A stretch of 64,000 bases of DNA from positions 682,001 through 746,000 of the forward strand of contig NZ_OW711693.1 in NCBI RefSeq assembly GCF_940670685.1, read 5' to 3'. Both the position numbers and the translations under genes were made by a program. The notes beneath the pieces are model-generated. The model was not told the origin of the DNA. It did not search any database and saw nothing but the letters and a program-made list of their open reading frames with translations. The DNA is from Anaeropeptidivorans aminofermentans. GTDB taxonomy: Bacteria; Bacillota; Clostridia; Lachnospirales; UBA5962. Below, piece by piece: positions 35,651 to 53,958 of the stretch. Within the stretch, counting starts at the first letter, position 1. Every line of letters starts with the position of its first letter.

Positions 35651-36589
35651 TTGAAACAGTATATAAAAAGAAGGGTATTAGGCTTTTTTATTGTTTTAGT
35701 TGGTGTTAGTATTTTGAGTTTTCTTCTCCTGGCCTTTTCGGGAAAGGATCCAGCCGAGATTATGGCACGCCGAATTAGCATAAATGCTTCCGCAGAGATG
35801 ATAGAATCGGTGCGGGCTGATATGGGGCTTGATAAGCCTCTTTCGGTGCGGTATTTTAACTGGATTAAGGGTTTCTTTACCGGGGATATGGGCATATCTA
35901 TATTTTCCTCCAGAGAAATATCACAGGATTTGGCGGAGTTCTTTCCCGTGACGCTTTCTCTGGTGGGGATGGCCTTATTGTGGATTGTGCTTTTTAGTAT
36001 CCCCGTAAGTCTGCTATGCGCTCGATTTCGTAACGGTGCGCTGGATCAGATAACCCGGGGCATTACTGTTATCGGGATATGCATCCCAACTTTTTGGCTG
36101 GGTTTTTTGCTGTTGCTTGCTTTTGCTGTCAAGCTGTCAATATTTAAAGTCTTACCGGAACCGGGAATCAAAGGGTATATCCTGCCGTCTTTTGCGCTGG
36201 CGTTTCCCGTTGCCTGCGGCATGATACGGCTCTTCCGTTCAACACTGCTTTCAGAACTGTCAAGCGACTATGTTCAGTATGCAAAAGCCCGGGGATTATC
36301 CGCCAGACGAATACTGACCCGTCATGTTATGCGGAATGCGCTGCCTCCTATCATAACGCTTTTCTGCCAGTATCTCGGATACCTTATTGCAGGCGGCGCC
36401 GTTATAGAAAGCGTTTTTTCCATGAAGGGCATCGGAACCTATCTGATGGGCTGCGTAATGGCATCGGACGCAGCCAGCGTAGCGACTTGCATCGTAATTA
36501 TCGCCGCTATATTTGTTTCCGCCAATCTGGCAGGCGATCTAATGAATAGGATATTATGTCCATGGATAGTGAGGGAAAGCAATGATTAA
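35651..36589 (+). CDS. ABC transporter permease, NikB/DppB-type (system 2)
   Basis: This 312-residue permease has six membrane segments, starting with a TTG codon seven bases after GGGAGG. It has the family N-terminus (IKRRVLGFFIVLVGVSILSFLLLAFSGKDPAEI), the periplasmic DMGLDKPLSVRYFNWIKGFFTGDMG segment and the docking loop DYVQYAKARGLSARRILTRHVMRNALPP. It overlaps the next gene by eight bases. No 3' truncation or frameshift is seen, unlike the second permease of system 1. Confidence 0.94.
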   Translation: MKQYIKRRVLGFFIVLVGVSILSFLLLAFSGKDPAEIMARRISINASAEMIESVRADMGLDKPLSVRYFNWIKGFFTGDMGISIFSSREISQDLAEFFPVTLSLVGMALLWIVLFSIPVSLLCARFRNGALDQITRGITVIGICIPTFWLGFLLLLAFAVKLSIFKVLPEPGIKGYILPSFALAFPVACGMIRLFRSTLLSELSSDYVQYAKARGLSARRILTRHVMRNALPPIITLFCQYLGYLIAGGAVIESVFSMKGIGTYLMGCVMASDAASVATCIVIIAAIFVSANLAGDLMNRILCPWIVRESND

Positions 36590-37406
36590 GAAATTATTGA
36601 AAAACCCGCAGGCCCTCATTGGGATGACGCTTATTATTGCCATGATGCTTGCTGCACTGCTGGCCCCTATGCTGGCGCCACACGACCTGGAGTTTGTGGA
36701 TATGACAAAAAAATTCATCGAGCCCTGTAAGGAATACCCTTTGGGAGCTGATCAATTAGGGCGGTGTGAGCTGTCAAGACTATTATACGGTGCGAGATAT
36801 TCTCTTGCAATCAGCCTGCCGATTTTATGGATGCTTGGGGTAATTGGCCTTGCATTGGGAACTATAAGCGCTTGTGCAGGAGAGAAGACAGACAGGGTAC
36901 TCACTATCATTTGCGATATTTTCATATCCTTTCCCTCGCTGATTATTGCTATAGCCGTTATTGGCGTTCTGGGTAACGGGTTACAAAATATCGCCATTGC
37001 CGTCATTGCTTCTATGTGGGCATGGTTTACAAGAATGGTGCGCTCCTATGCACTGGTAGAGATGGGTAAGGACTATATCCTGGCCGCCCGTATCAGCGGC
37101 TGCAATACGCTGAAGTTAATTGTAAAGCACTTGATTCCAAATATTCTGCCTCAGTTTTTTGTTTATCTCAGTACGGGAGTGGCATCGTCGATTCTGATGG
37201 TATCCAGCTTTGCATTCCTTGGATTGGGGCTGCCTGCCGGTGTAGCTGAGTGGGGTGCGATGCTCAATGATGCCCGTTCAAATCTGTACGGGCATCCGGA
37301 ATTCCTTATTTATCCCGGCCTTTTTATCTTGATAGCGGCAGCAGGCTTCAATCTTTTTGGTGAGGCTTTGCGTGATGTGTTGCTGCCGGAGGAGGAGAGC
37401 CTATGA
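36582..37406 (+). CDS. ABC transporter permease, NikC/DppC-type (system 2)
   Basis: This 274-residue partner permease has the usual HDLEFVDMTKKF ... PLGADQLGRCELSRLLYGARYSL N-terminal region and a docking loop in KDYILAARISGCNTLKLIVKHLIPNILPQ. The typical LGTDxLGRD motif reads LGADQLGRCE, a mild variation. It overlaps both neighbours by a few bases, so the five genes are read as a tightly coupled operon. Confidence 0.94.
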   Translation: MIKKLLKNPQALIGMTLIIAMMLAALLAPMLAPHDLEFVDMTKKFIEPCKEYPLGADQLGRCELSRLLYGARYSLAISLPILWMLGVIGLALGTISACAGEKTDRVLTIICDIFISFPSLIIAIAVIGVLGNGLQNIAIAVIASMWAWFTRMVRSYALVEMGKDYILAARISGCNTLKLIVKHLIPNILPQFFVYLSTGVASSILMVSSFAFLGLGLPAGVAEWGAMLNDARSNLYGHPEFLIYPGLFILIAAAGFNLFGEALRDVLLPEEESL

Positions 37407-38215
37407 AAGAACTTATTAAAGTGGAAAACCTATGTGTGAAACTAAAAAAAACAAAGCAGATGCTGGTAAATGATATAGGCTTTTCTATCACCGCTGGAGA
37501 ATCTTTGACCATACTGGGGCAATCCGGCAGCGGAAAGACCATGACCTGCCATTCCATTATGGGGCTATTGGATATAAAGCGTTTTCAGGTTACAGGAAGC
37601 ATCATCTTTGAAAATCAAAATCTTCTGTCTCTAAGCAGAAAAGAAAAACAGAGAGTTTACGGAGGTCCAATCGCTATGATACCGCAAAATCCTATGACTG
37701 CTTTTGACCCTTCTATGAGAATAGGCAGGCAGATGGAAGAAACCCTCGCTCTTCACTCGAATCTTTCCAAGTCTCTGCTGGAAAACAAAGTTAAGGAGTC
37801 TCTTGAAAGGGCAGGAATTGTTGAGGCAGACCGTGTTTATCGCAGCTATCCTCATACGCTTTCCGGCGGTATGCTTCAGCGTGCCATGATTGCCATGGCG
37901 CTGATGGTGGATGCACGCCTTATTGTGGCAGATGAACCTACTACTGCTCTGGATGTGGTGAACCGCAATGCGACGGTAGAATCCTTTCTTACACTTCGGG
38001 AAGCGGGAACGGCTGTTTTGCTAGTTACACATGATTTTTCTGTGGCAACGCAATTTGGCGGAAATCTTCTTATTATGAAGGACAGCGAAATCGTTGAAAA
38101 GGGAACAACAGCAGATATCCTTAAAAGACCGGTCCATTCCTATACGAAAGCGCTTTTAGATGCTTCCCGCCTGTCAAAAGCGAATTTTAGAGATAAGGAG
38201 GGGGTGCTATGCTAG
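37403..38215 (+). CDS. ABC transporter ATP-binding protein, NikD/DppD-type (system 2)
   Basis: This 270-residue ATPase has Walker A GQSGSGKT, a Q-loop (AMIPQNPMTAFDPS), the signature TLSGGMLQRAMIAMALM, Walker B LIVADEPTTALD and an H-loop VTHDFSVA. The GGMLQRA signature is frequent in nickel/dipeptide transporters. It starts inside the end of the permease gene, and its stop lies inside the start of the next ATPase. Confidence 0.94.
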   Translation: MKELIKVENLCVKLKKTKQMLVNDIGFSITAGESLTILGQSGSGKTMTCHSIMGLLDIKRFQVTGSIIFENQNLLSLSRKEKQRVYGGPIAMIPQNPMTAFDPSMRIGRQMEETLALHSNLSKSLLENKVKESLERAGIVEADRVYRSYPHTLSGGMLQRAMIAMALMVDARLIVADEPTTALDVVNRNATVESFLTLREAGTAVLLVTHDFSVATQFGGNLLIMKDSEIVEKGTTADILKRPVHSYTKALLDASRLSKANFRDKEGVLC

Positions 38216-38973
38216 AGGCCAGAGGGGTTTGCAAGAGTTTTCCTGCTCAAAAAAATAAGAAGGAGCTGGTGGCGGTAAATAGCGTTGACTTTATGCTGCG
38301 AAAAGGGGAGCTTTGTGCACTGGTGGGAGAAAGCGGCTCAGGAAAAAGTACGTTTTCCAGGTTGCTGACAGGGTTGATTCCGCCTACCTCAGGAGACATT
38401 CTGTTGGATGGAAAGAGCATTTCTGCTAACGAGTGGCGCAGAAATAAGGCATTATGCTCACGAATTCAGCTTGTTCTGCAGGATGGGAAAAGCTCCCTTG
38501 ACCCCCGCTTTACTATCTATGAAATTATTGCGGAGCCCATTAGAAATCTAAAAAAGTGTTCTAAAACAGAAGAACGACAAAAAATTGAAAAGCTGATAGA
38601 AGAGATGGAGCTGCCTGCAGAGTGTTTGGGAAGAAAACCTTCCGAATTATCCGGCGGGCAGCAGAAGCGTGTGTGCATTGCCCGTGCATTGGCAGCTGAG
38701 CCTGAAATTATTATCTTTGATGAAGCTGTCAGCGGACTTGATGTATTGGTGCGAAAGAGCATTCTTGACCTTTTGAAGCGTTTGCATTGCACACAAAATC
38801 TTGCCTATCTGTTTATTACTCATGATATGGATGTTGCGCTGTATCTTGCCAATCGCATTCTGGTCATGAAAGACGGAAACATTGTTGAGCAGGTGTATTA
38901 TCGTGGAGACCCAGGCTGTTTTGTTCATCCTTATTCCCGGCTTTTACTCCAGGCAATGACACCGGATGCTTAG
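38209..38973 (+). CDS. ABC transporter ATP-binding protein, NikE/DppF-type (system 2)
   Basis: This 254-residue second ATPase has Walker A GESGSGKST, a Q-loop (IQLVLQDGKSSLDPR), the signature ELSGGQQKRVCIARAL, Walker B IIIFDEAVSGLD and an H-loop FITHDMDVA. A C-terminal extension with VHPYSRLLLQA is characteristic of the oligopeptide/nickel class and is absent from its short counterpart in system 1. GGAGGGGG precedes the ATG. Confidence 0.94.
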   Translation: MLEARGVCKSFPAQKNKKELVAVNSVDFMLRKGELCALVGESGSGKSTFSRLLTGLIPPTSGDILLDGKSISANEWRRNKALCSRIQLVLQDGKSSLDPRFTIYEIIAEPIRNLKKCSKTEERQKIEKLIEEMELPAECLGRKPSELSGGQQKRVCIARALAAEPEIIIFDEAVSGLDVLVRKSILDLLKRLHCTQNLAYLFITHDMDVALYLANRILVMKDGNIVEQVYYRGDPGCFVHPYSRLLLQAMTPDA

Positions 38974-39334
38974 AGTTAAGAAAAAAATAAAATTTTTAAA
39001 AGCTGTGTATTTAAAATATACCAAACTAAATTCAAAGAAGTGATGCACTTTTATTGCTAATGGATTTAAAAATACGGATTTCCTGCGCAAACACTGTATT
39101 TTTGAGCCATTGTAACTATACGTTTTTTCTCCTGCTTTTCTTGAAATTTACTATAGTTTAAAAGAATTCTTTTTTCAGAGAAAACTTATATTTTGGATTG
39201 TGCAGAATAGCTTTGCAGTTCCTGCTTTGAGTGTAATCAATATACCACTGTAAAAGTATGATTCGTTTATAGTAAAAAGCGTGCTCTTTTAAGCGCATTT
39301 AATATATATCATAAATTTAATTAGGAGGATTGAA
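38974..39334. repeat. Gap with family A element before the binding protein
   Basis: Positions about 39059-39155 are a family A element (ATGGATTTAAAAATACGGATTTCC ... TTGAAATTTACTATA). It separates the ATPase gene from the binding-protein gene. AGGAGG at 39323 precedes the ATG at 39335. No terminator was seen, so read-through is possible. Confidence 0.65.
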
Positions 39335-40990
39335 ATGAAGTCTAAGAAAATTCTTCCTTTGGTGCTTGCTGCTGCTATGTGCTTTGCGCTTGCTGGCTGC
39401 ACTTCGGCCCAAAGAAATAGTACAGATATCAAAAGTTCGGACGGAGACATTGCAAAAGATGCTGAAGAAAAAGTTGTGACACTTGCCGAAAGCTGGGATT
39501 TTGCTTCCGGTATTGCACCTGCTCTCAATCCAAGCGTTTCTCCAAACTATGGTTCTATCTACTGGAGCCGAAATTTCTACAATACGCTGGTCAGCTATAA
39601 TGATAAGGGAGAAATTGTAGGAGAACTGGCTGAGGATTGGGAAATAACCGACGATGGAAAGCGTTATACCTTTCACCTGCGTGAGGGTGTTAAGTTTTCA
39701 GACGGCACGGATTTGACGGCGGAGGCCGTGAAAGTATCCTTTGAGGCCGCCGTATTTAATCTTGGCATGTACAACGGTTCTTACGGTATGCTTTCCGCTT
39801 TATTCGATAGCATCGAGGTTGTGGACAAGCATACGGTAGTCATTAACCTCATTCAGCCTTATTACAATACACTTAACGACTTAACTATGAGCTGTCCTCT
39901 GGCAATTGCGAATCCCGTGGCCTTTGAGGGCGCTGAGGACTTGACCTATGGTGCACCCTTCCAAACCGCATCTTTCGGTACGGGGCCGTATATGTACACT
40001 GGTGATTTTACGAATAATACTTATACGTTTATTCGCAATCCTTATTATTGGGGTGAAGCGCCTGAAGCGGATGCCTTTAAAGTTAAAGTGATTGAAGATA
40101 ATGATGCAAAGCTTCTTGCCCTGCGAAATGGTGAAATTGATGGGATTCTTGGCTCCAGCCGTATTAGTTTTGACGGTTACAGCGAGCTTTCCTCAGATGC
40201 TTCTTTTAATACTGGCATGAATGAACGGGCCAGTCTGACGCGCTATCTGGGTATGAACGTTACGACTGCTCCTTTTGATGATATTCGGGTGCGCCAGGCA
40301 GTTGCTTATGCCATTGATCAGTCTGCATTGGAAGCGTCCGTTTTCAATGGTCTTGAGACGGCAGCTGAAACGTTATTTCCGAAAAGCGCACCTTACTGCG
40401 ATGTGGAGCTGACCACATATGCAACCGACTTTGATAAAGCCAAAGAGCTGCTTAAGCAGGCAGGGTGGGCCGATTCAAACGGCGATGGAATTGTAGAGAA
40501 GGACGGAATACCTTTTGAAGTAGACCTTAACTACATGACCAGCCTTGCAAGTATTGATAATGCTGCGCTAGCCATTGCAGGACAGCTTGCACAAATTGGC
40601 ATCAAGGTTAATGTTATATCCGGTGATATGATGACTTATTATGCGGCGATGTCTACCAGCCCTCTGCTGCTTGCCAACACCTATGGCGGCGCTTTTGATC
40701 CCAGTGCTGTTGTGACCAATATGAATCCGGCTGTCAGCACAGACCCTCTATCTATGCAATACGTAAATTTCTTTGAAGAGGGTATCCTTGACGAACTTAA
40801 TGCCACAGCCGATATGAACAGAGTACAGGAAATCTATAAACATGTTTTGACGACCATAGCAGATCAGGCTCTTCTGGTACCCTTAACCCGTTCCCATGAA
40901 GTAGGTATCTGGAGCAGCACGGCAGTTGCTGGCTATGATTTTTATATTGACCCCAGCTATACTGTTATATCCCAAATACATATAAAGTAA
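39335..40990 (+). CDS. Nickel/peptide-type ABC substrate-binding lipoprotein (system 2)
   Basis: This is a family 5 solute-binding protein of 551 residues. It has a lipoprotein signal (LVLAAAMCFALAGC, Cys near residue 21) and the core blocks LAEDWEITDDGKRYTFHLREGVKFSDGTDLTAEAVKVSF, FGTGPYMYTGDF, NPYYWGEAPEADAFKVKVIED, VRQAVAYAIDQSALEASVF and ADSNGDGIVEKDGIPFEVDL. The early TLAESWDF segment and overall layout recall NikA-like proteins, but ligand residues cannot be judged by eye. It is last in the system 2 operon. Confidence 0.9.
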   Translation: MKSKKILPLVLAAAMCFALAGCTSAQRNSTDIKSSDGDIAKDAEEKVVTLAESWDFASGIAPALNPSVSPNYGSIYWSRNFYNTLVSYNDKGEIVGELAEDWEITDDGKRYTFHLREGVKFSDGTDLTAEAVKVSFEAAVFNLGMYNGSYGMLSALFDSIEVVDKHTVVINLIQPYYNTLNDLTMSCPLAIANPVAFEGAEDLTYGAPFQTASFGTGPYMYTGDFTNNTYTFIRNPYYWGEAPEADAFKVKVIEDNDAKLLALRNGEIDGILGSSRISFDGYSELSSDASFNTGMNERASLTRYLGMNVTTAPFDDIRVRQAVAYAIDQSALEASVFNGLETAAETLFPKSAPYCDVELTTYATDFDKAKELLKQAGWADSNGDGIVEKDGIPFEVDLNYMTSLASIDNAALAIAGQLAQIGIKVNVISGDMMTYYAAMSTSPLLLANTYGGAFDPSAVVTNMNPAVSTDPLSMQYVNFFEEGILDELNATADMNRVQEIYKHVLTTIADQALLVPLTRSHEVGIWSSTAVAGYDFYIDPSYTVISQIHIK

Positions 40991-41325: not shown

Positions 41326-41354
41326 TTGACAATTACAAAATATCCTGTTATTCT
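41326..41354 (+). promoter_or_regulatory. SigA-type promoter of aroF leader
   Basis: TTGACA, a 17-base spacer, TATTCT. The predicted RNA start is about 25 bases before the leader peptide, the same layout as the histidine leader at 10.8 kb. Confidence 0.75.
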
Positions 41355-41384
41355 CACACGTATAGTTAAGTATTAGGGGATTTT

Positions 41385-41483
41385 ATGATGATTCGTGTTT
41401 ATCTGGCAAAATTATATTATTATGGCTACGCCTGGGTTGTTTATAGCGCAGGTTATTTTTGTTGTCATAAGATTGCCGTATAG
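41385..41483 (+). CDS. Tyrosine-rich leader peptide of aroF
   Basis: A 33-codon frame (two successive ATGs; AGGGGA seven bases before the second) encodes a 32-residue peptide with seven tyrosines, including LYYYGYAW at residues 10-17, one Trp and one Phe. TAT TAT TAT occurs in a row. The stop lies 31 bases before a perfect terminator, and the next gene is DAHP synthase, the entry step of aromatic amino-acid synthesis. This composition is just what a tyrosine-sensing leader peptide would need. Confidence 0.72.
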   Translation: MMIRVYLAKLYYYGYAWVVYSAGYFCCHKIAV

Positions 41484-41514
41484 GTGTATATAAGCCTGAA
41501 TCGTAAAAGATACG

Positions 41515-41551
41515 GCCGGTAACCTTTGATAGCAAAGGTTACCGGCTTTTT
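41515..41551 (+). terminator. Attenuator terminator before aroF
   Basis: GCCGGTAACCTTTG, loop ATAG, CAAAGGTTACCGGC then TTTTTG: a perfect 14-bp stem. AGGTTA within the leader coding region (codons 22-24) can pair with TAACCT in the 5' arm and so could act as an antiterminator when the ribosome stalls on the earlier tyrosine codons. Confidence 0.85.
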
Positions 41552-41695
41552 GATACAAAAAGGTAGGAACTTAGAGAACAAGGCGGATATGGTTTAAAGA
41601 AGCCCTGTAAACTTAGAAAGTACCAGTATAGATTTGCATAGCAAGTTTAAACTTTGCTGCAGTCAAACAAATTTTTATAGAAGGAGAGCAGGAGA

Positions 41696-42709
41696 ATGAT
41701 TATTATTTTAAAGCCAAAGGCCAATGAGGAAAAAGTAAGGGATCTTATAAAACGTTTAGAGCGTATGGAGCTAAGTATCAATTACTCAGAGGGCGCTACC
41801 ACAACGGTTATAGGGTTAATTGGCGATACTTCCGCAATAGATATGGAAATACTTCGGGCGCATGAAATTGTTGCTGATGTAAAGCGAATTACAGAGCCTT
41901 ATAAAGCAGCAAATCGTAAGTTTCATCCCGATGATACCATAATAGAAGTTGCAGGCCATAAAATCGGTCAGGGATACTTTAACGTATTTGCCGGCCCATG
42001 TTCAGTGGAAAGCGAGGAGCAGATCATTGCAGTGGCCGAGGCAGTTAAAAAAAGCGGTGCAGGATTTTTACGGGGCGGCGCATTTAAACCCCGTACATCG
42101 CCGTATTCATTTCAGGGCCTGAAAGAAGACGGCTTGAAATTGCTCTTAAAGGCAAAGAAAGCCACGGGCATGCCCATTATTACAGAGATTATGAGTGAAC
42201 TACATTTGGCGTTATTTGAGGATGTAGACCTTATTCAGGTAGGTGCCAGAAACATGCAAAATTTCACTTTGCTTAAGGAATTGGGACGTACCCGGAAGCC
42301 TATTTTTCTGAAAAGAGGATTATCCAGTACCATGGAAGAGTTTTTTATGTCGGCAGAATATATCATGGCGGAAGGCAACCGGAACGTAATTTTATGTGAG
42401 CGGGGAATCAGAACTTTTGAACCAAGCATTCGCAATAATTTAGATATATCTGCAATTCCCATTGTAAAACGTTTTTCACATCTGCCAATTGTCATTGATC
42501 CGTCTCATGCCGCAGGAACTGCATGGATGGTTGAGCCTTTATCGAAAGCCGCCATTGCGGCAGGGGCCGATGGATTAATGATTGAGGTTCATAATAATCC
42601 GAAGGAAGCCTTAAGTGACGGGGCACAATCTCTGGATTTCGATGAATTCAGCCATGTAATGGAAATAATAAAAGAACGCATAGCGTTTGAAGGAAAAGTT
42701 ATGGGGTAA
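41696..42709 (+). CDS. aroF: 3-deoxy-7-phosphoheptulonate (DAHP) synthase, type I-beta
   Basis: This enzyme joins phosphoenolpyruvate and erythrose 4-phosphate, the first step of the shikimate pathway. The 337-residue protein has an N-terminal ferredoxin-like regulatory domain (MIIILKPKANEEKV ... about 1-70), as in Thermotoga DAHP synthase. The catalytic barrel follows, with FAGPCSVESEEQI, FLRGGAFKPRTSPYSFQG, IQVGARNMQNF, PIFLKRGLSSTMEEF and IVIDPSHAAGT. The regulatory domain permits feedback inhibition by Tyr or Phe; the leader upstream adds a second, transcriptional layer. AGGAGAGCAGGAG precedes the ATG. Confidence 0.96.
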   Translation: MIIILKPKANEEKVRDLIKRLERMELSINYSEGATTTVIGLIGDTSAIDMEILRAHEIVADVKRITEPYKAANRKFHPDDTIIEVAGHKIGQGYFNVFAGPCSVESEEQIIAVAEAVKKSGAGFLRGGAFKPRTSPYSFQGLKEDGLKLLLKAKKATGMPIITEIMSELHLALFEDVDLIQVGARNMQNFTLLKELGRTRKPIFLKRGLSSTMEEFFMSAEYIMAEGNRNVILCERGIRTFEPSIRNNLDISAIPIVKRFSHLPIVIDPSHAAGTAWMVEPLSKAAIAAGADGLMIEVHNNPKEALSDGAQSLDFDEFSHVMEIIKERIAFEGKVMG

Positions 42710-42723
42710 AGTTGGATTTTAAT

Positions 42724-42795
42724 GAAATAGCAGCATTGTCAATTTGATTTTCTCTTATTTTATGTCAGCCAAAGCAAAAAGCTTACAGCGGTATA
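42724..42795. repeat. Family B element
   Basis: ATGAAATAGCAGCATTGTCAATTTG ... GCTTACAGCGGTATAAGAGAAAATGG, very like the copy at 42986-43079. Confidence 0.7.
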
Positions 42796-42808
42796 AGAGA
42801 AAATGGGC

Positions 42809-42873
42809 TATAAAGAAATATCAACTAAGGACCATGGGCTTAGCCCATGGTCCTTAGCTGATATTTCTTTATA
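42809..42873. repeat. 65-bp near-perfect palindrome after aroF
   Basis: Two arms of 32 bases around a single central T (42841): TATAAAGAAATATCA...CCATGGGCT and its reverse complement, with one mismatch. It may serve as a bidirectional transcription stop, but it lacks a T run outside the stem and looks more like a snap-back element. Confidence 0.7.
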
Positions 42874-42935
42874 GGTTATGGAGCTTTACAACAGTCTTAG
42901 GCGCTGCACGTGAAGTAATACGCTCAATAGAAATC

Positions 42936-43612
42936 TATAATAAATTTAAAGTGAAACAGTAACGAAACCGTATACTTCTTGAATTCATATGAAATAGCAG
43001 CGTTGTCAATTTGCTTTTCTTTTATTTTATGTTCTCTAAAGCTAAATACTTATGGCGGTATAAAAGCAAATTGACTATACGAGGATTCAAAAATGCGTTT
43101 TAGAGTAAAATATCCTTCAGGAAGTAACAAAAATCTATTTTTCATAAACGGCTTAATATAATAGAAACACTTATATTAAGCCATTCAAAATATACGATTT
43201 TTATTACTGTAATTAAACTCTTTAACTATAGAAGAAATATAATAAAGCGCCTTTGTGAAACTGCCTTTATTTGATTATATATATTGAAAGGCTTATATCT
43301 ATTACGGTATAAAGGCAATTTCACTATGGTTCCGAATAAAATCCATGTTTTTATATTATAATAATCCTCAGTTTAAATAGGAACAAAACAATTTCATTTT
43401 ATTTGAATGAATGATTTGGTGAAATTTATTCTGCCTTACTGTTTAAAATGAAATTGTCTATACGCGAACTTGGAAAAGGATACAGGCGTAAGCCTGTAAA
43501 TCTTTTTTAAGTTCGCGTTTTCTTATGGTTATCAAACTTATTTTTTGTTTGATAGCCATAAATCCCTAGTGAATCGGTTTTTGTTACTTCTTTATAAGAA
43601 ATTTACACTATA
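42936..43612. repeat. Composite nested foldback element (copy I)
   Basis: Outer ends are TATAATAAATTTAAAGTG and AAGAAATTTACACTATA (family A). Inside lie a family B element (42986-43079), a family C element (about 43109-43230, TAACAAAAATCTATTTTTCAT ... GATTTTTATTACTG), a family D segment (43227-43328, CCTTTGTGAAACTGCC ... GGCAATTTCACTAT) and a family E segment with the hairpin arms GCGAACTTGGAAAAGG / TTTTTTAAGTTCGCG. The whole, minus family B, reappears inverted at 62714-63519. Confidence 0.85.
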
Positions 43613-43614
43613 TT

Positions 43615-44760: not shown

Positions 44761-45672
44761 TTATGAATACGCCTTCATCAGTGTAACCATAACTGCTTTC
44801 TGAGCATGGAGGCGGTTTTCAGCCTCTTCAAAAATTTCATCAGCATGGGCTTCGAAAATTTCCTCTGTAATTTCCTGCCCGCGATAAGCAGGAAGGCAGT
44901 GCTGTACCATTGCGCCGGGTTTTGCCGCCGCCATCAAAGCATCGTTTACCTGATAGCCTGCAAAAGCCTTTATGCGGGCTTCCTTATCCTCTTCCATGCC
45001 CATAGATGCCCAAGTATCTGTGATAATAATGTCGGCATTTGCTGCCGCTGTCATAGGGTCATCTGTAATGAAGAAATTGGGGCTTTTTTCAGCAAACGCC
45101 ATCACCTGGGGATCAGGGCGATAGTCTACAGGTGTCGCAACAGAGACTTTCATACCTGTTTTAAGGCCGCCGACAATCAAGGAGTTTGCCATATTATTGC
45201 CGTCTCCGATATAACACATTTTCAGCCCCTCAAGCAAAGCATATTTTTCTCGGATTGTCATAAGATCGGCAAGCACCTGACAGGGGTGGGCAAAGTCTGT
45301 CAAGCCGTTAATTACCGGTACCGAGCCAAACTTTGCAAGGTCCTCTACCTCTTTTTGGGAAAAGGTACGAATCATAATGCCGTCCAGATAGCGGGATAAT
45401 ACCCGGGCCGTATCCTGTATAGGTTCCCCGCGGCCAATCTGTAAATCACGGGCAGATAGAAAGAGAGACTGGGCGCCAAGCTGAAATGTCCCTGTTTCAA
45501 AGGATACACGGGTGCGGGTTGAGGATTTTTGAAAAATAAGCCCGATGGACTTCCCCTCCAACAGGCGGTGTGAAATATTGTTTTTCTTCTCATACTTGAG
45601 CTGATCTGCCATATCCAGAATGCCGATAATCTCTTCGGTGCTGAGATCCAGCAGCTTGAGTAAATGTTTCAT
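44761..45672 (-). CDS. argF: Ornithine carbamoyltransferase
   Basis: ArgF makes citrulline from ornithine and carbamoyl phosphate. The 303-residue protein has the carbamoyl-phosphate site SSTRTRVSFE, the loop HPCQVLADL, DTWASMG and the ornithine motif HCLPAYRG. GGGAGG precedes the ATG at 45672; the frame extends a little upstream without a ribosome site. It is the last gene of the arginine cluster, parted from argD by a repeat element. Confidence 0.96.
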   Translation of the reverse strand: MKHLLKLLDLSTEEIIGILDMADQLKYEKKNNISHRLLEGKSIGLIFQKSSTRTRVSFETGTFQLGAQSLFLSARDLQIGRGEPIQDTARVLSRYLDGIMIRTFSQKEVEDLAKFGSVPVINGLTDFAHPCQVLADLMTIREKYALLEGLKMCYIGDGNNMANSLIVGGLKTGMKVSVATPVDYRPDPQVMAFAEKSPNFFITDDPMTAAANADIIITDTWASMGMEEDKEARIKAFAGYQVNDALMAAAKPGAMVQHCLPAYRGQEITEEIFEAHADEIFEEAENRLHAQKAVMVTLMKAYS

Positions 45673-45985
45673 GTTGTTTCCTCCCTTTGGATAGCGGCAT
45701 ATCAGCCGCAAGGTTTTTATAATAAGGGTACTTAAAAAGGTTCTTGTGAATTTAAAATGAAACGGTAATGAAACCGTATCTTTATGCAGACTTAAAACTG
45801 CGTTTTAGAGAAATATAATAAAGGCATTGTGGAAAATTGCCTTTATTTGATTTTATACATTAAAAGCCCTATTACCTATTTCGGTATAAAGGCAATTTCA
45901 CTCTATTTCCGAAGGAAATCTGTGTTTTTGAATTTATAGGAAATAGGATTTTGTTATTTTTTATAAGAAATTAGCTATATCTCAT
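45673..45985. repeat. Composite family A/D element between argD and argF
   Basis: Positions about 45744-45979 begin GTGAATTTAAAATGAAACGG and end TTATAAGAAATTAGCTATA (family A ends). They contain a family D segment (GAAATATAATAAAGGCATTGTGG ... AAGGCAATTTCACTCT). The element lies inside the arginine operon. Confidence 0.75.
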
Positions 45986-47164
45986 TTAAAATATAGTTTT
46001 CATAATTGAAAGAGCTTCATCTATTTCTTCATAAGAAATGGTTAGAGGAGGCAGAAGCCTGATGGTTTCAGTGCCGGCAGTAAGTACAAGGAGGCCCTTT
46101 TCTAAACAAGCGGCAACTAAATCAGCACGCTCCTCGGGGTTAACAAAAATGCCGATCATAAGCCCCATACCCCGGACGCTTTCGATTTTATCAGAATTAA
46201 GCGAAAGAATGCCCTTTGTCAAATATTCTCCTTTATGTATTACTTCTTCTAAAAATTCCGGCTGATTTACAATATCTAAAACGGCATTTGCCGCGGCACA
46301 TACGGTTGGCGTGCCGCCGAAAGTTGTAGCATGGGTTCCCGGGCCAAGTATATCACAGCAGCTTTTAGCGGCGATTACTGCGCCAATAGGCAGGCCGCCC
46401 CCTAAGCCTTTTGCGGTCGTTACGATATCAGGCTGAATGCCGTATTGCTGGAAGCAGAATAAAGAGCCGGTGCGTCCGATGCCGGTCTGAACTTCATCAA
46501 TAATGAGCAGCAAGTCCTTTTCACGGCACAGAGTTTCCGCTTCCTTGACAAATGTCTGATCCATAGGCAAAACACCGCCTTCGCCCTGAATCAGCTCTAT
46601 CATAATCCCGCAGGCGGCAGCATCCGCTTTAGCCTTCATATCATTGATGTCGCCTGGTTCGGCAAAATCAAAGCCCTCGGTAAAGGGAAAGAAATAATCA
46701 TGGAATTTATCCTGCCCTGTTGCGCTGATGGTTGTTATGGTACGGCCGTGGAAGGAGTTTTTCAGTGTTATGATTTTGCTCCGGCCTTTGCCGTATTTAT
46801 CATAAGAATATTTTCTTGCAAGCTTGATTGCGCCCTCATTAGACTCTGCACCGGAGTTGGCAAAGAAAACCTTGCCCATACCGGTAGCTTCCACTAATGT
46901 TTTGGCAGTTTGCACCATAGGGGCAGTTGTAAATAAATTTGAAGTGTGCATTAGCTTCTGTGTCTGCTCTGCAATGGCGTCAACGAGCTTTTTGTTATTG
47001 TAGCCCACACTGCATACGCCGATGCCCGAGCTAAGATCAATATATCTTTTGCCTTCAATGTCCCAAAGCTTAGATGCTTCGCCGTGAGAAAGGGCAATGG
47101 CAAAGCGGCCGTAGGTGTTCATGACGTATTGCTGTTCCCGGGCCTTAAGTTCTTGATAAGTCAT
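45986..47164 (-). CDS. argD: Acetylornithine aminotransferase
   Basis: This PLP enzyme makes N-acetylornithine from the semialdehyde. The 392-residue class III aminotransferase has DLSSGIGVCSVGY, NSGAESNEGAIKLARKYS, KNSFHGRT, LIIDEVQTGIGRTG and the PLP lysine in TTAKGLGGGLPIGA, then HATTFGGTPTVCAAA. It lies between argB and argF in biosynthetic order, so it acts in arginine synthesis. Confidence 0.96.
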   Translation of the reverse strand: MTYQELKAREQQYVMNTYGRFAIALSHGEASKLWDIEGKRYIDLSSGIGVCSVGYNNKKLVDAIAEQTQKLMHTSNLFTTAPMVQTAKTLVEATGMGKVFFANSGAESNEGAIKLARKYSYDKYGKGRSKIITLKNSFHGRTITTISATGQDKFHDYFFPFTEGFDFAEPGDINDMKAKADAAACGIMIELIQGEGGVLPMDQTFVKEAETLCREKDLLLIIDEVQTGIGRTGSLFCFQQYGIQPDIVTTAKGLGGGLPIGAVIAAKSCCDILGPGTHATTFGGTPTVCAAANAVLDIVNQPEFLEEVIHKGEYLTKGILSLNSDKIESVRGMGLMIGIFVNPEERADLVAACLEKGLLVLTAGTETIRLLPPLTISYEEIDEALSIMKTIF

Positions 47165-47192
47165 AAAAATCGCCTCGCTTTCTCTTTAAATT

Positions 47193-48059
47193 TTATGCAA
47201 ACATTGTACCGACACCGTCTTTACTTAACAGCTCAATTAAAATTGAATGAGGTACACGTCCATCTTGAATATTTGCCCGTTCAACGCCTTTTCGCACGGC
47301 TTCCACACAGCAATCCACCTTTGGAATCATACCGCCTAAGATAATGCCCTCTTTAATTAAGGCGGGCACCTCCGATACTCTAAGTCTGTGAATCAAAGTG
47401 CTTTCATCCTTAGGGTCACGGAGGAGGCCGCAGACATCTGTCAGCAGAATCAGTTTTTTTGCTCCGAGGGCGATTGCTAATTTTGCCGCCGCAGTATCGG
47501 CGTTGATATTATAATTGGTTTCATCATCGATGCCGCAGGCAACACTGGATACGACGGGGATATATCCGTTTTTAAGCATATCAATCACCGGCTGGGGGTT
47601 TACTTCCACAATATCACCAACATAGCCGTAGTCGGTTCCTTTTTCGTCGGTTAGGCGCTTGGCCTGAAATAAGCCGCCGTCCATACCCCCAAGGCCGATC
47701 CCCTTGCCTCCGGCTTTCTCCAAAAGAGTGACAAGGTCTTTATTGACCTTACCGCAGAGAATCATCTGAACAATATCCATGGTTTCCCGGTCTGTATACC
47801 GCAGGCCGTTGACAAAATAGGACTTTTTTCCTATTTTCTTAAGCATGTCGGAGATTTCCGGACCGCCGCCGTGGACTACCACCACTTTTATCCCGACTAA
47901 ATTTAAAAGCACAATATCATGAATGACTGCATCTTTTAAATTTTTATTAATCATGGCATTGCCGCCGTATTTTATTACAACCGTCCGGCCGTAATATTCC
48001 TGAATATAGGGCAGGGCTTCTACCAATATATTTGCTTTGGCTTCCGCATCAAAAATCAT
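47193..48059 (-). CDS. argB: N-acetylglutamate kinase
   Basis: ArgB phosphorylates N-acetylglutamate, often the feedback-regulated step. The 288-residue protein has VVIKYGGNAM, VVVHGGGPEISDML, GLRYTDRETMDIVQMILCGKVNKDLV, the nucleotide region NINADTAAAKLAIALGA and LTDVCGLLRDPKDESTLIHRL. The N-terminal extension before VVIKYGG (about 27 residues) is of the kind found in arginine-inhibited kinases, which suggests feedback control. Confidence 0.96.
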   Translation of the reverse strand: MIFDAEAKANILVEALPYIQEYYGRTVVIKYGGNAMINKNLKDAVIHDIVLLNLVGIKVVVVHGGGPEISDMLKKIGKKSYFVNGLRYTDRETMDIVQMILCGKVNKDLVTLLEKAGGKGIGLGGMDGGLFQAKRLTDEKGTDYGYVGDIVEVNPQPVIDMLKNGYIPVVSSVACGIDDETNYNINADTAAAKLAIALGAKKLILLTDVCGLLRDPKDESTLIHRLRVSEVPALIKEGIILGGMIPKVDCCVEAVRKGVERANIQDGRVPHSILIELLSKDGVGTMFA

Positions 48060-48079
48060 GAGCTTATCTTTCCTTTCCT

Positions 48080-49288
48080 TTAGGTTCTGTAATCGCCGTT
48101 AATCTTTACATAATCATAAGTTAAATCACAACCCCAGCAGGCGGCCGCAGAATTACCTTCCCAAAGGTCAATTTCAACTGTAATTTCTTTTTCTAAAAGA
48201 ATTTTCTTGGCAAGGGCTTCGTCGAAATCCACACCGTGCCCTTGGTCACAAACCATGAGATTTCCTGCGCCTGATGAAAAGCTAATACGAACCGATGCAG
48301 GGTTAAATGAGGCATTGGCATAGCCCATTGCACACAGTACACGGCCCCAGTTTGCATCTGCGCCAAAGATAGCCGCCTTAACTAAGCTTGAACCGCAAAC
48401 AGACTTTGCCAAAGCCTCGGCTGCTTCTTCACTGCCGGCGCCTCGAACGATGCAGGTAATAAGCTTGGTAGCGCCTTCGCCGTCTGCCGCAATTTGGCGG
48501 GCCAAGCTGATATTTACCTCATGGAGCGCATTATAGAAGGCATTGTAATCCTCGTTCTTTTGTTCAATGATTCTATTTTCAGCCGTACCGTTTGCCAGTA
48601 CAACACACATATCGTTGGTGGAAGTGTCTCCGTCAACGGTCACACGGTTATAGCTGCGTTTTACGCTTTCCGAAAGGGCTTCCTGCAGCATTTCCTGTGT
48701 AATGGCACAGTCGGTAGTAATAAAAGAAAGCATTGTACCCATGTTTGGGTGAATCATGCCGCTGCCTTTGGCAATACCCCCCATTCGGCAGATTTTACCG
48801 CCTATCATAAACTCAACTGCCGCCGTTTTTGGGTGTGTATCCGTAGTCATAATGGCAATACTTGCCGCCTCGGAGCCGTCATAGGTCAAATTTATATTGC
48901 CGATGTTTTCTTCAATGCATTCTATATTTAATCGCTGGCCGATTACCCCGGTAGAGGCTACGAGAACCTGATTTTCATCAATGCCTAAAAAATCAGCGGC
49001 CGCTTTTGCCTGCCGGAGGGCATTTTCCATACCTTCCGGTGCACAGGCATTGGCATTGCCCGAATTGACGACAATTGCTCTGGCAGTACCGTCTTTAAGG
49101 TGCTCCATTGTAACATAGAGGGGAGCGGCTTTCACTTGATTCAGGGTATACGTTGCCGCTGCTGTACACGGGCAATCCGATAGGATTATGGCAAGATCCT
49201 CTTTTGTTTGGCTTTCTTTTATGCCGCAAAGGGTAGAGCCTGCTTTAAAACCCTTTGCAGCACATAAGCCGCCGGAAATAATATTCAT
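48080..49288 (-). CDS. argJ: Glutamate N-acetyltransferase / amino-acid acetyltransferase
   Basis: ArgJ recycles the acetyl group from acetylornithine to glutamate. The 402-residue precursor self-cleaves before the Thr of the VTVDGDTSTNDMCVVLANG motif to give alpha and beta chains. MGGIAKGSGMIHPNMGTML and FGADANWGRVLCAMGYA are also present. With argJ the pathway is cyclic, which explains why no argA or argE is seen in the cluster. Whether it also makes acetylglutamate from acetyl-CoA cannot be told. Confidence 0.96.
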   Translation of the reverse strand: MNIISGGLCAAKGFKAGSTLCGIKESQTKEDLAIILSDCPCTAAATYTLNQVKAAPLYVTMEHLKDGTARAIVVNSGNANACAPEGMENALRQAKAAADFLGIDENQVLVASTGVIGQRLNIECIEENIGNINLTYDGSEAASIAIMTTDTHPKTAAVEFMIGGKICRMGGIAKGSGMIHPNMGTMLSFITTDCAITQEMLQEALSESVKRSYNRVTVDGDTSTNDMCVVLANGTAENRIIEQKNEDYNAFYNALHEVNISLARQIAADGEGATKLITCIVRGAGSEEAAEALAKSVCGSSLVKAAIFGADANWGRVLCAMGYANASFNPASVRISFSSGAGNLMVCDQGHGVDFDEALAKKILLEKEITVEIDLWEGNSAAACWGCDLTYDYVKINGDYRT

Positions 49289-49419
49289 ACTTAATCACCT
49301 CATTTATCTTGGAAGGGTTGATTGCATGGTATCGTAAATAAACTCCAAAAAAGACAGAGCTTATTTACGATAGCCTTAGGAAAACTCATTAAATTAAAAG
49401 TCAAAAGGAAGATTCATGT
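49289..49419 (-). other. Intercistronic hairpin between argC and argJ
   Basis: TATCGTAAATAA and TTATTTACGATA form a stem at 49330-49372 around a loop of about 19 bases. Its meaning is unclear; it could stabilise or divide the transcript. Confidence 0.45.
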
Positions 49420-50340
49420 TTATATGTTTAACCCTGCGGCCTCATCCAAACCAAGCATAATATTCATATTTTGTACTGCTGCGCCGGAAGCCCCCTTGCC
49501 AAGGTTATCAAAGAGTGCCGTAACGATAGTTTGGTCCCCATGGCCGGAAACAATCAGCTCCAAGGAATCCTTGCCGGCCTTAGCGCTTGCATAAATTACA
49601 GGCTCGGCTCCGCCCAAGGGGGCGACTGTAACCAGGCTTTCATTTGCATAGCGCTTTGCAAGTGCTTCGTGAATACGCCCTGCACTATAGCCAGGAAGCA
49701 TTACAGTGGTTGCCATGCCTTTATAGAAATCGCCAAGAATAGGTACAAAAAGAGGCGGAGCAGAAAGTCCGCAGATATACTGCATTTCCGGCAGGTGCTT
49801 ATGATTAAGCCCCAAGCTGTAAATACGGTGGGATTCATGCCGCAAATCGCGGTTTTCGTCTTCGTATTCTTCGATTAGCTTCTTACCGCCGCCGGAATAC
49901 CCCGTCAGGGAATAACAGGTGAAAGGAAAATCAATAGAGATAATACCATCTTGTATAAGGGGATAAACCGCCGCAATGAAGCCTGAGGCATGGCAGCCAG
50001 GATTCGCTACACGATTGGAATTAGCAATTGCCTCACGATGCTTTGGGGAAAGCTCGGGAAAGCCGAAATCCCAGCCTGCCGCCGTTCTATGAGCCGTAGA
50101 TGCATCAATGACACGGATGTTTGGGTTTTCAATCATAGAGACAGCCTCAATAGCTGCTTCATCAGGCAAGCATAAGAAAACAATATCCGCCGAATTAATC
50201 AGTTCGGAACGCTTTACCCTGTCCTTTCGTTTAGCCTCTTCGATGCATAAAAGCGTTAAATCAGAACGCTTACCCAGTCTTTCATAAATTTGAAGACCGG
50301 TTGTGCCTTCCTTTCCGTCTATGTAAATTTTAGGCTTCAT
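49420..50340 (-). CDS. argC: N-acetyl-gamma-glutamyl-phosphate reductase
   Basis: ArgC reduces acetylglutamyl phosphate with NADPH. At 306 residues it is the short (type 2) form. It has the nucleotide-binding start PKIYIDGKEGTTGLQIYERL, VIDASTAHR, the active-site motif NPGCHASGFIAAVYPL and YSLTGYSGGGKKLIEEYE. Two ATGs (50343 and 50340) lie inside the end of argH; the second is better spaced from GGTGGAG. The overlap means translational coupling with argH. Confidence 0.95.
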   Translation of the reverse strand: MKPKIYIDGKEGTTGLQIYERLGKRSDLTLLCIEEAKRKDRVKRSELINSADIVFLCLPDEAAIEAVSMIENPNIRVIDASTAHRTAAGWDFGFPELSPKHREAIANSNRVANPGCHASGFIAAVYPLIQDGIISIDFPFTCYSLTGYSGGGKKLIEEYEDENRDLRHESHRIYSLGLNHKHLPEMQYICGLSAPPLFVPILGDFYKGMATTVMLPGYSAGRIHEALAKRYANESLVTVAPLGGAEPVIYASAKAGKDSLELIVSGHGDQTIVTALFDNLGKGASGAAVQNMNIMLGLDEAAGLNI

Positions 50341-51730
50341 CATGAGACTCCACCTCGCTTTTGATAAAAGCTTCAATGACATTAATCTGACGCTCTACTT
50401 CTTTAGGCGCCGGCCCGCCAAGCACTTTGCGCTCTTGAACACAGGTGTTTAAATCCAGCGCATCATATATATCAGGACCAAAGGATTCAGAAATTGCCCT
50501 AAAATCCTCAAGGGTTAAGCTTTCCAGTGTTTTATCCGACTTGATGCATTCATTTACAAGACTTCCGACGATTTTATAAGCATCTCGGAAGGGCATGCCC
50601 TTTTTCGTCAGATAATCGGCACAGTCTGTTGCATTAAGGAAGCCCTTGGCCGCCGCCTTACGCATATTATCTTTACAAAGCGAAATGGTTGAGAACATGG
50701 GAATAAACACTTCAAGGCACTGTTTAACAGTGTCGATGGCGTCGAAAACAGCTTCCTTATCCTCCTGCATATCCTTGTTATACGCAAGAGGGAGACCTTT
50801 CAGCATACTTAGCATTGTGGTAAGGGAACCATAAACACGGCCGGTTTTACCACGGATAAGCTCACATACATCGGGGTTTTTCTTCTGGGGCATAATCGAC
50901 GAGCCGGTGGAGTAGGCATCGTCCAGCTCAATAAATTTAAACTCCCAGGAGCACCAGGAAATAATTTCTTCAGACAGTCGGGAAAGATGCATCATGAGAA
51001 TGGATAAATCCGAACACAGCTCTACACAGTAATCGCGGTCAGAAACCCCGTCCAGTGAGTTGTCGGTTAAACGCTGAAAACCCAGCTGTTCCCGTACAAA
51101 ATCACGGTCAATGGGATAGGTGGTAGAAGCCAGTGCACCGGAGCCAAGAGGCATATCATCCATACGCTTGAGACAATCCGTAAGACGGCTTACGTCACGT
51201 TTAAGCATATTAGCGTAAGCCATCATATAGTGTGCAAATGTTGTTGGCTGGGCACGCTGCAGATGGGTATAGCCGGGCATTACCGTTTCCAGGTTCTCAC
51301 GAGACTTTTTACAAAGAGCCGTCATAAATTTAAGAATCAGGCTGATGATTTCATTAATTTCCTTCTTAACGTATAAACGCATATCCAGTGCAACCTGGTC
51401 ATTTCTGCTGCGGCCCGTATGTAAGCGTTTGCCTGTATCTCCAATGCGCTCAGTCAGCAGCTGTTCAATATTCATATGGATATCTTCATAATCCGGGGAA
51501 AACTCAATTTTACCCCCTTCAATATCAGATAGGATTGCCTTAAGACCTTCAACGATTTTCTCTGCCTCATGCCCCTCGATAATGCCCTGTTTACCGAGCA
51601 TATTTGCATGGGCGATTGAACCGGCGATATCTTCTTTATATAAACGACAGTCAAAGCGAATCGAAGAATTAAAATCGTTTACTACCAGATCAATTTCCTT
51701 TTGAAAGCGTCCGGCCCATAATTTTGCCAT
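50330..51730 (-). CDS. argH: Argininosuccinate lyase
   Basis: ArgH splits argininosuccinate into arginine and fumarate, the last step. The 466-residue protein has the family N-terminus KLWAGRFQKEID, DIHMNIEQLLTERIGDTGKRLHTGRSRNDQVALD, YTHLQRAQPTTFAHYM and the signature loop GSSIMPQKKNPDVCELIRGK. A hairpin (GATAGGATACGG / CCGTACCCTATC, 51753-51789) lies in the gap to argG. Confidence 0.97.
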   Translation of the reverse strand: MAKLWAGRFQKEIDLVVNDFNSSIRFDCRLYKEDIAGSIAHANMLGKQGIIEGHEAEKIVEGLKAILSDIEGGKIEFSPDYEDIHMNIEQLLTERIGDTGKRLHTGRSRNDQVALDMRLYVKKEINEIISLILKFMTALCKKSRENLETVMPGYTHLQRAQPTTFAHYMMAYANMLKRDVSRLTDCLKRMDDMPLGSGALASTTYPIDRDFVREQLGFQRLTDNSLDGVSDRDYCVELCSDLSILMMHLSRLSEEIISWCSWEFKFIELDDAYSTGSSIMPQKKNPDVCELIRGKTGRVYGSLTTMLSMLKGLPLAYNKDMQEDKEAVFDAIDTVKQCLEVFIPMFSTISLCKDNMRKAAAKGFLNATDCADYLTKKGMPFRDAYKIVGSLVNECIKSDKTLESLTLEDFRAISESFGPDIYDALDLNTCVQERKVLGGPAPKEVERQINVIEAFIKSEVESHDEA

Positions 51731-51799
51731 AATATACCCCCTCTCAATAATGGATAGGATACGGTAGAAGCTTATGTCCGTACCCTATCAAAGTTTATC

Positions 51800-53056
51800 T
51801 TATTTTTCTACTCCCGGAAAACTCAGCCCTTTTTGCTTTTGAAGCGCCTGATTGTTTAAGGCACGTACCTTGATCGGCAGGCCGAACAGATTAATGAAGC
51901 CTTCGGAATCCCCATGATTAAAAGCGTCCGATTCGTCAAAGGTTGCCATAGCTTCGGAGAACAAAGAATAGGGTGAAGTTACCGACGCCGGAATGATATT
52001 ACCTTTATAGAGCTTAAGCTTTACATCGCCGGTTACAGTTTCCTGGGTAGAATCCACAAAGGCACTCATGGCTTTTCTGAGGGGGGTGTACCATTGGCCG
52101 TTGTAAACCAGCTCGGCGAATTTAAGGGCAAGCTGCTGCTTATAGTGGGTTGTTTCACGGTCAAGGGTAATTTCTTCAAGTTTCTGGTGTGCGGCATACA
52201 GTACCGCGCCGCCGGGGGTTTCATATACACCGCGGCTTTTCATACCCACCAGACGGTTTTCTACAATATCCAATATGCCGCAGCCATTGGCGCCCCCCAG
52301 CTCATTGAGCTTTAAAATCAAAGAAACCGAGTCCATCTCTACGCCGTCAATAGCAGTGGGAACGCCCTTTTCAAAATGAATCGTCACATAAGTTGGCTTA
52401 TCCGGCGCCTGCTCAGGAGAAACACACATCTCAAGGAAGCCTTCTTTATTAAGAGGCGCCTCATTTGCCGGATCTTCCAAATCCAGCCCCTCATGGGACA
52501 AATGCCACAAGTTTTTATCCTTGGAATAATTTGTTTCACGGTTTATTTTAAGGGGAATATTATGTTTAATTGCGTAGTCAATTTCTTTATCCCGGGAATT
52601 CAGCTCCCAGAAACGCCATGGCGCAATAATATCCATATGAGGTGCAAAATGCTTAATGGCAAGCTCAAAACGAACCTGATCATTGCCCTTGCCGGTGCAG
52701 CCATGACAAATCGCATCGGCGCCTTCCTTAAGGGCAATTTCTACAATGCGCTTTGCAGTAATGGGGCGCGCAAAAGAAGTTCCCAAGAGATACTGCTCAT
52801 AGGTTGCTCCCGCTTTCATCGTGGGGATAATATAATCGTCTACAAATTCCTGGGTGATGTCTTCAATATAGAGCTTAGATGCGCCTGTACTAAGGGCTCT
52901 TTCTTCAAGGCCTTCCAGTTCATCCGCCTGACCAACGTTTGCAGAAACGGCAATAACTTCGCAGCCATAGTTTTCTTTCAGCCAGGGAATTAGCACAGAA
53001 GTGTCCAAACCGCCGGAATATGCCAATACGACCTTGTTGTATTTCTTATTTTTCAT
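51800..53056 (-). CDS. argG: Argininosuccinate synthase
   Basis: ArgG condenses citrulline and aspartate with ATP. The 418-residue protein starts [21 protein letters not shown] with the PP-loop SGGLDTS, and has [49 protein letters not shown] and [17 protein letters not shown]. The frame is open to 53233, but GGAGGG before the ATG at 53056 marks the start. It is the first gene of the arginine cluster and carries ArgR-type boxes upstream. Confidence 0.97.
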
Positions 53057-53958
53057 TTTTTTCAACCCTCCAAAATTATTTTGATTTTTGTGATATCCAT
53101 AATTATAAAGATTCATTTTTATAAACGCAATAAGAAATGTATAAATATTTAATATTTGTGAATATTTATACATAAGGCAATTAAAAAATCTGATATTATA
53201 TGGATAAAAATACATCTTGCACCAAATATACAATCATTTGACTTTAAAATTTTTCCAAATCACAGGCTTATAATTTTAAGTGCTTAGTATATAAGTAAAG
53301 GTGCTCTTAGTATTTAATATGCTTGAAATATATTTGGAGGGAGTTTTCAGAGTTACAAGTAAAACAATAGATGAACTTGGCTTCTTTATTTTAGAAAAGG
53401 GAATCTGGACTGAAGGGATATTAAAATGGGATTTGATAATGATGGAAATAGTTTTCTCCTGTCATCAATTACAGATAATAAAATGATATTTGAAAAGAAA
53501 TAGTTTTATTGAAATCAGTATAGAAAGAAGCGTCTTAGTTTCTAAAATTTTAAATTATTGCAGGATAAAGGTACAGATATAATAAACGCAAGTTTTATAA
53601 TTGAAATTATGATAGATATTTGCTTTAAAAATACATCGTGTATAAGCAGTATAATAATAAGAATAAGCCGAACTTTGATTTATAGAGGCATTAAAACATG
53701 CTTATAATAACAGGGATTTCCTTGCTAAACTGGGCCTGTATTTTTTCTGCAATCAGAAAAGACCATGGTGAAGCTTTTGCTTTAATATCCTAAAGTACCT
53801 TTTTTATTGAAACAGCGGGTTAATTTATAGGAGAAGAGTACAATAAACAGAAAATAAGCTTGAAATTGTTCCATCTTATTTATATACTATTTAATCAGAG
53901 GTACCATAGTTTCAGTATCTTACGATAAATATTTAAGTATTTGAAGCGGGGAAAATTC
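53057..53958. other. Divergent intergenic region between argG and the PucR gene
   Basis: The ArgR-type boxes lie at 53139-53172. The rest, up to the PucR ribosome site (GGGGA before 53959), is very AT-rich with no credible gene. A 61-codon frame at 53301 has no ribosome site and no domain. No repeat element of the families listed here was recognised. Confidence 0.5.
53139..53172 (-). promoter_or_regulatory. Tandem ArgR-type ARG boxes before argG
   Basis: TGTATAAATATTTA (53139-53152) and TGAATATTTATACA (53159-53172) each resemble the ARG box (TGAATAWWWATTCA), and together form a larger inverted repeat with 20 bases between box starts. A third, weaker match (TTCATTTTTATAAA) lies at about 53112-53125. 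Such tandem boxes bind the ArgR hexamer with arginine and repress transcription. Confidence 0.7.

Follow-up and report, generated by a model that had tools for sequence, protein, structure and literature searches.

The stretch from about position 41361 to 41551 of the 64,000-nucleotide DNA analysed here (the window, from Anaeropeptidivorans aminofermentans) is very probably a ribosome-mediated transcription attenuator of the aroF gene that follows it. We base this reading on the letters of the DNA and on folding models of its RNA: the computed anatomy of the element, the recurrence of aromatic-rich leaders in relatives, the covariation of a hairpin called P2, and the complementarity between leader and terminator. 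We also consider it probable, if less firmly, that the element belongs to an unnamed, mobile attenuator family of Bacillota that lies before aroF, pheA or tyrA and whose Phe and Tyr codons are retuned to the gene, the window holding a strongly Tyr-tuned copy. The presumed regulated gene (aroF, 41696..42709) encodes DAHP synthase, which catalyses the first step of aromatic amino acid synthesis; this identity, as given in an earlier note on this DNA, was confirmed by matches to NF006421 and TIGR01361 above their cut-offs, and a search of the 3.76-Mb genome with the aroF protein gave no second match at E<=0.001.

All parts of the element lie on the plus strand. A consensus scan placed a promoter-like pair of -35 and -10 hexamers, TTGACA-17-TATTCT, at 41326..41354, with 10 of 12 consensus matches and a TG preceding the second hexamer, from which the transcript would start at about 41361; since the same scan found 3 such sites in 501 bases against 1.8 expected by chance, the promoter is weak evidence. 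A Shine-Dalgarno-like AGGGGA (41375..41380) precedes a leader ORF of 32 codons, running from the ATG at 41385 to the TAG at 41483 (41385..41483), whose product, MMIRVYLAKLYYYGYAWVVYSAGYFCCHKIAV, contains seven Tyr (codons 6, 11, 12, 13, 15, 20 and 24), one Trp (Trp17) and one Phe (Phe25) among its 32 residues, as well as a SAGYF stretch common to relatives. An ORF of up to 40 amino acids with at least seven Tyr arose in only 4 of 2000 shuffles of the 420-nt upstream region, and a density of six aromatic residues in ten in 16 of 1000. The ORF is followed by an intrinsic terminator with its U-tract (41514..41551, -25.6 kcal/mol), the hairpin of which (41514-41547) has 15 pairs, a loop of 4 and TTTT directly after it; the scan returned two terminator-like sites, which are this hairpin read on either strand, where chance would give 0.2. 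Promoter, AGGGGA, seven-Tyr ORF and terminator had all been described in the earlier note and were found in place, the hairpin recorded there as a perfect 14-bp one consisting of 14 Watson-Crick pairs and one G-T. The leader RNA as a whole folded more stably than 200 of 200 shuffles (z -4.03).

The aroF start at 41696 lies 144 nt beyond the terminator, and in this interval (41552-41695) we noticed by eye an imperfect palindrome, AGCAAGTTT/AAACTTTGCT. Directly upstream of the leader are ABC transporter genes (35651-40990), with a binding protein that best matches NikA, below the curated cut-off. After aroF come ~900 bases without an ORF of 80 amino acids (42710-43614), containing inverted repeats and, by eye, two copies of the unit GCAGC(A/G)TTGTCAATTTG(A/C)TTTTCT, and further on, on the minus strand at 44761-53233, a row of what we take by recognition to be arginine biosynthesis genes.

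Aromatic leaders recur upstream of aroF in other genomes. From a protein search of genome contigs we took the best 80 of 578 aroF relatives, to which the window was added, and collected 420 nt upstream of each gene, or whatever the contig holds. A short ORF with at least six aromatic residues in ten was present in 47 of these 81 regions (the window included); on the reverse strand 2 of the 81 had one, and 20 shuffle sets gave a mean of 2.95 (maximum 8). A longer region for locus L024 brought the number to 48. A terminator-like hairpin followed the ORF in 47 of these 48 loci, against 14 of the other 33. At L011 the program had picked the wrong ORF and hairpin, which were corrected by hand for the later tests. 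These counts are not independent, because several genomes repeat an earlier species (L129, L130, L136 and L162 carry the leaders of L023, L031, L007 and L011).

The element is patchy among relatives. Of the five best-ranked aroF relatives, L002 (72% identical), L003 and L006 have no leader, L004 is a borderline case and a leader is present in L005. Among seven genomes of the family, an aroF match was found in the window's own genome and in G003 only, and no aromatic leader was seen before the aroF of this one same-family relative. The earlier note had counted absence of the leader from close relatives against the attenuator, and such absence was thus found in part, in L002, L003, L006 and G003. 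In the comparison of aroF leaders that it had proposed, P2 covaries, and where a leader is present its aromatic codons are kept, mostly as a mixture of Phe and Tyr.

The distribution of the element was followed with two covariance models, R2 (17 sequences) and R3 (42 sequences), both built without the window. Each ranked the window's element first in the 64 kb, R2 at 20.2 bits (E=0.057, next match 16.8) and R3 at 28.4 bits (E=0.0047, next match 18.8); in the whole-genome searches of order, class and phylum, the window's genome fell below the thresholds of both models. In the order, 23 of the 196 genomes searched gave R2 matches, at 25 places in all: 17 before aroF, 3 before pheA and 5 before neither. 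Of 392 genomes sampled from the class, 51 had a single R3 match each (E<=0.001); in the phylum R3 matched 12 of 398 genomes (E<=1e-4), one of the matches being already in the class set. Taken together, the models found 87 places outside the window, of which 79 precede one of the three genes (71 aroF, 6 pheA and 2 tyrA, with 8 preceding none), each place being assigned to the first of aroF, pheA or tyrA regardless of any other intervening gene. Pfam confirmed prephenate dehydratase for the six pheA genes and prephenate dehydrogenase for the two tyrA genes.

An in-frame start with a Shine-Dalgarno-like core was found in 74 of 81 places (L190 left out), and the leader frame was open in 77 of the 81, compared to 34 and 1 for the other two frames, an openness owed in part to the selection of that frame by its aromatic density and overlap. 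The phase of the leader frame was constant at the start of the motif (69 of 81) and varied at its end (34, 27 and 20). R2 is a narrow model: among 62 further aroF loci (the 17 training loci and L053 being left out), it reached E<=0.01 in five, L008, L013, L028, L037 and L059, and it missed L024, the closest in peptide. We therefore regard the other aromatic aroF leaders, which include types outside the reach of the models, as alike in build, which is a weaker statement than membership in one RNA family. In the window's own genome prephenate dehydratase is matched once and prephenate dehydrogenase twice, strongly in one case and weakly in the other; R3 found no leader near this genome's pheA or its strong tyrA, nor at 15 T-box loci, at E up to 0.5.

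The codons of the leaders follow the downstream gene. For this comparison 82 leaders were scored, leaving out L119 and L122-L125, in which the fetched stretch holds no aroF, pheA or tyrA. Leader modules before pheA have mostly Phe codons in L110, L114, L117 and L151, and those before tyrA are rich in Tyr codons (L127, L145). Within the core, Tyr makes up 0.22 of Tyr plus Phe for pheA (6 leaders), a median of 0.42 for aroF (71) and 0.67 for tyrA (2), with p=0.006 for pheA against aroF, a difference that rests on small numbers and includes two pheA leaders (L180, L191) with four Tyr each. The window's core, with six Tyr and one Phe, ties L115 for the top Tyr share among the 71 aroF leaders and exceeds all 47 leaders of the first set. 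This top Tyr share, along with a Tyr share that follows the gene, makes tyrosine the likeliest signal, and we favour it as the main one with reasonable, though not strong, confidence. The same attenuator might instead sense Phe, Tyr and Trp generally, the richness in Tyr being drift within a Phe/Tyr family, as might be supposed from the mixed codons of most aroF leaders and from the Trp17 and Phe25 of the window's own leader; we hold this to be possible and distinctly less likely, given the window's place at the top of the aroF leaders and the shift of the pheA and tyrA leaders with their gene, few as these are.

A further feature of the leaders is a stretch of the form [FYW][SG]A[GS] after the aromatic cluster, present in 47 of 82 and conserved beyond the sensing residues. 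Such conservation of a SAG[YF]F-like stretch is what might be expected were the peptide a nascent-chain arrest peptide, a reading that we group with binding of the RNA by a protein or metabolite, the codons in either case not sensing tRNA charging. In this stretch, however, the Ser codon is AGC in 43 of 45 cases and the Ala codon GCU in 39 of 47, and codons so fixed point to a constraint on the RNA rather than to an arrest peptide. Codon content that tracks the downstream gene also argues against this reading, as does the Rfam search: neither the window nor 20 loci of the family matched any Rfam family at gathering score, the matches at E<=5 being weak and all below that score. We consider this reading improbable.

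In the attenuator reading the RNA would switch between alternative pairings, for which folding of the window gave the following segments. Segment 1 (41376..41392), which overlaps part of the Shine-Dalgarno sequence and the start codon, pairs with 41461-41477 in the ribosome-free minimum free energy (MFE) structure. P2 (41430..41453) is a hairpin over the aromatic codons and a candidate pause hairpin. Segment 2 (41462..41478, codons 26-32) is the best-supported candidate antiterminator strand, and segment 3 (41517..41532) comprises the terminator's 5' arm and loop, the terminator itself being the 3:4 hairpin.

P2 was assessed by folding, by arm swaps and by covariation in relatives. In 31 loci (A1, which is 33 of 52 loci, with L004 and L053 dropped), P2 formed from its own arms gave -10.5 kcal/mol, and -6.2 when the two arms came from different loci (p=1.7e-6). 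The outer stem of segments 1 and 2 behaved likewise in relatives (-14.8 own against -10.4 swapped, p=5e-6); the window's own outer stem was no better than with swapped partners (-10.8 against -10.5). In a 17-sequence alignment (A4) covering both stems, the covariation score was 0.335 compared to 0.223 in shuffles, none of 500 reaching it, and fell to 0.075-0.185 when the partners were slid by 1 to 3 columns; P2 had 80.9% of its cells paired and the outer helix only 56.6%. Further pair types in this alignment were no more numerous than in shuffles, of which 113 of 500 reached the same number. Aligning 42 sequences to the model, a procedure that leans toward the structure, gave a score of 0.326 against 0.199, and in both cases the shuffles leave shared ancestry in place. 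Applied to 33 leaders aligned with MAFFT, RNAalifold returned zero pairs, probably through misplacement of the 3' arm in that alignment, and a hand-given structure and codon-anchored arms were used in its place. In the rigid codon-anchored test (18 distinct of 20 loci) the cells paired exceeded those of 2000 of 2000 arm swaps, while 83 of 2000 swaps reached the pair-type count and 15 of 2000 the double-change count.

To model the ribosome's passage, only the RNA downstream of the ribosome was allowed to fold, with the terminator's 3' arm not yet made. This walk and a duplex test were applied to 52 of the 81 aroF loci, namely loci of density at least 6 with a terminator and six hand-named loci. 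In the duplex test, which set the RNA lying between aromatic cluster and terminator against the terminator's 5' arm, 12 of the 52 loci had an own pairing ranked within the top 5% of mismatched ones, against 2.6 expected. Mean predicted sequestration of the 5' arm was 0.75 with the ribosome at the aromatic cluster, 0.33 at the stop codon and 0.59 without a ribosome; the value at the cluster exceeded that at the stop by more than 0.1 in 48 of 52 loci, and the reverse was seen in none, a contrast to which the method itself contributes, since a ribosome at the stop leaves less RNA free. A fairer control is to swap terminators between loci: leaders sequestered the 5' arm of their own terminator at 0.76, and those of 25 terminators from other loci at 0.50 (n=51, p=1e-8). 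Two positions of segment 2 occur, one downstream of P2 (L007, L024) and one on the 3' strand of P2 (L037 and, by eye, L004 and L045).

In the window itself, modelled sequestration of the 5' arm was 0.80 with the ribosome at Tyr11 or Tyr12, 0.40 at Tyr6 and 0.23 at the stop, the walk being uneven toward its end (0.21-0.30 at Cys26-27, 0.66 at His28, 0.59 at Lys29, 0.23 at the stop). With the 3' arm held free, the same antiterminator was best at Tyr11, Tyr13, Tyr15 and Tyr20, joining 41462-41478 with 41517-41532 by 15 pairs: UUGUCA (41462-41467), AAG (41469-41471) and UUGCCG (41473-41478) with CGGUAA, CUU and UGAUAG. Taken alone this 2:3 duplex is unexceptional, 33% of mismatched partners being equally good. 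The earlier note had named a different antiterminator strand, AGGTTA (41450..41455, end of codon 22 to codon 24). It can indeed pair with TAACCT at 41520-41525, and AGGUUAUU:GGUAACCU (AGGUUA:UAACCU) is part of the MFE structure at Tyr13 and Tyr15 in the untruncated ensemble; with the 3' arm held free, its AGGU sits inside the P2 hairpin at the Tyr11 stall. The folding models thus make AGGTTA:TAACCT a real alternative, with 41462-41478 the better supported strand. In the ribosome-free window the 1:2 pairing is in the MFE structure, yet 0.55-0.63 of segment 3 is paired in the ensemble. At the four stalls tried the fold containing the terminator was far stabler than that without it (-43.6 against -28.1 kcal/mol at Tyr11), and the scheme must therefore be kinetic.

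To summarize the window by the features of trp-type attenuators, it has an intrinsic terminator between leader and gene, a putatively translated leader ORF rich in codons for an end product, and an antiterminator that, in the folding models, is exclusive with the terminator, free at the stall and masked at the stop. We propose that RNA polymerase would be closely followed by a ribosome translating the leader peptide. With Tyr-tRNA charged, this ribosome would reach the stop codon and mask segment 2 (41462-41478), the terminator would form and aroF would be off; when Tyr-tRNA is short, it would stall at Tyr codons 11-15 (or 20), and segment 2 would pair with the 5' arm of the terminator while the 3' arm is still to be transcribed, allowing read-through into aroF. 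P2 may pause the polymerase, keeping it and the ribosome in step. Such ribosome-mediated attenuation, as the earlier note had suggested, is well supported by the recurrence before aroF of the aromatic leader, the codon-bearing hairpin and the leader-terminator complementarity.

That recurrence, together with each leader's complementarity to its own terminator, also speaks against the hairpin being the terminator of an upstream transcript and the ORF a product of chance. A gene at 39335-40990 on the same strand could supply such a transcript, but the hairpin lies 524 nt beyond it and directly after the leader ORF, and a seven-Tyr ORF is rare in shuffled sequence (see above), making this reading very improbable. 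T-boxes are the usual tRNA sensors in Firmicutes and this genome has 16 matches to them, 12 over the cut-off, but T-box control of aroF is scarcely credible, with no RF00230 match in the window at gathering score and the nearest of the 16 some 79 kb from aroF. One T-box, before serS (G000:C1:1172704-1172898; L094, L160), was inspected because pheA is the next gene on the same strand; given this order pheA might fall partly under the serine T-box, and by eye a GCAAATTGGCAATGG stretch follows it in L094.

Regarding known systems, the window resembles E. coli trpL and pheL in having a leader ORF rich in end-product codons and an alternative antiterminator and terminator, a likeness in build without demonstrated sequence relation, and differs from them in its gene, aroF, and its mostly Tyr codons. 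The same walk method gave sequestration of 0.62 for trpL and 0.84 for pheL at their Trp or Phe codons (0.74 at the last Phe of pheL) and 0 at the stop, a profile that the window's walk resembles at cluster and stop; without a ribosome the values are 0.05 for trpL and 0.16 for pheL, compared to 0.55-0.63 in the window. Phe_leader of Rfam, a gammaproteobacterial aromatic leader-peptide attenuator, is alike in kind, and a match to it at gathering score was absent from the window and from the 20 loci searched. The nearest published system, compared by description only, is the uORFC-13-1 motif, an upstream ORF with one or more Phe codons directly before a terminator and aroF, for which its authors propose attenuation; it comprises 24 sequences, from Acholeplasma and environmental samples only (PMC8632094). 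Classical leader peptides in Firmicutes are represented by the His leaders before hisS paralogues in bacilli, which differ from the window in their His codons and tRNA synthetase genes and before which, according to the report of these leaders, leader-peptide systems were unproven outside Proteobacteria and Actinobacteria (PMC2965389). In view of such published leader-peptide attenuators, the bacilli His leaders among them, the mechanism is already known. The leader family seems to be undescribed, as we found no description of an aroF leader element in Clostridia in the open-licence literature.

The family module consists of an aromatic cluster, the P2 hairpin, an S-A-G-Y/F-F stretch and a terminator. 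If our reading is true, a family matched in 51 of the 392 class genomes sampled and in 12 of 398 from the phylum would mean that leader control of the entry into aromatic synthesis is common in these bacteria, and codon content would predict which amino acid is sensed. The work also yields a usable covariance model and indicates small ORFs that are perhaps unannotated.
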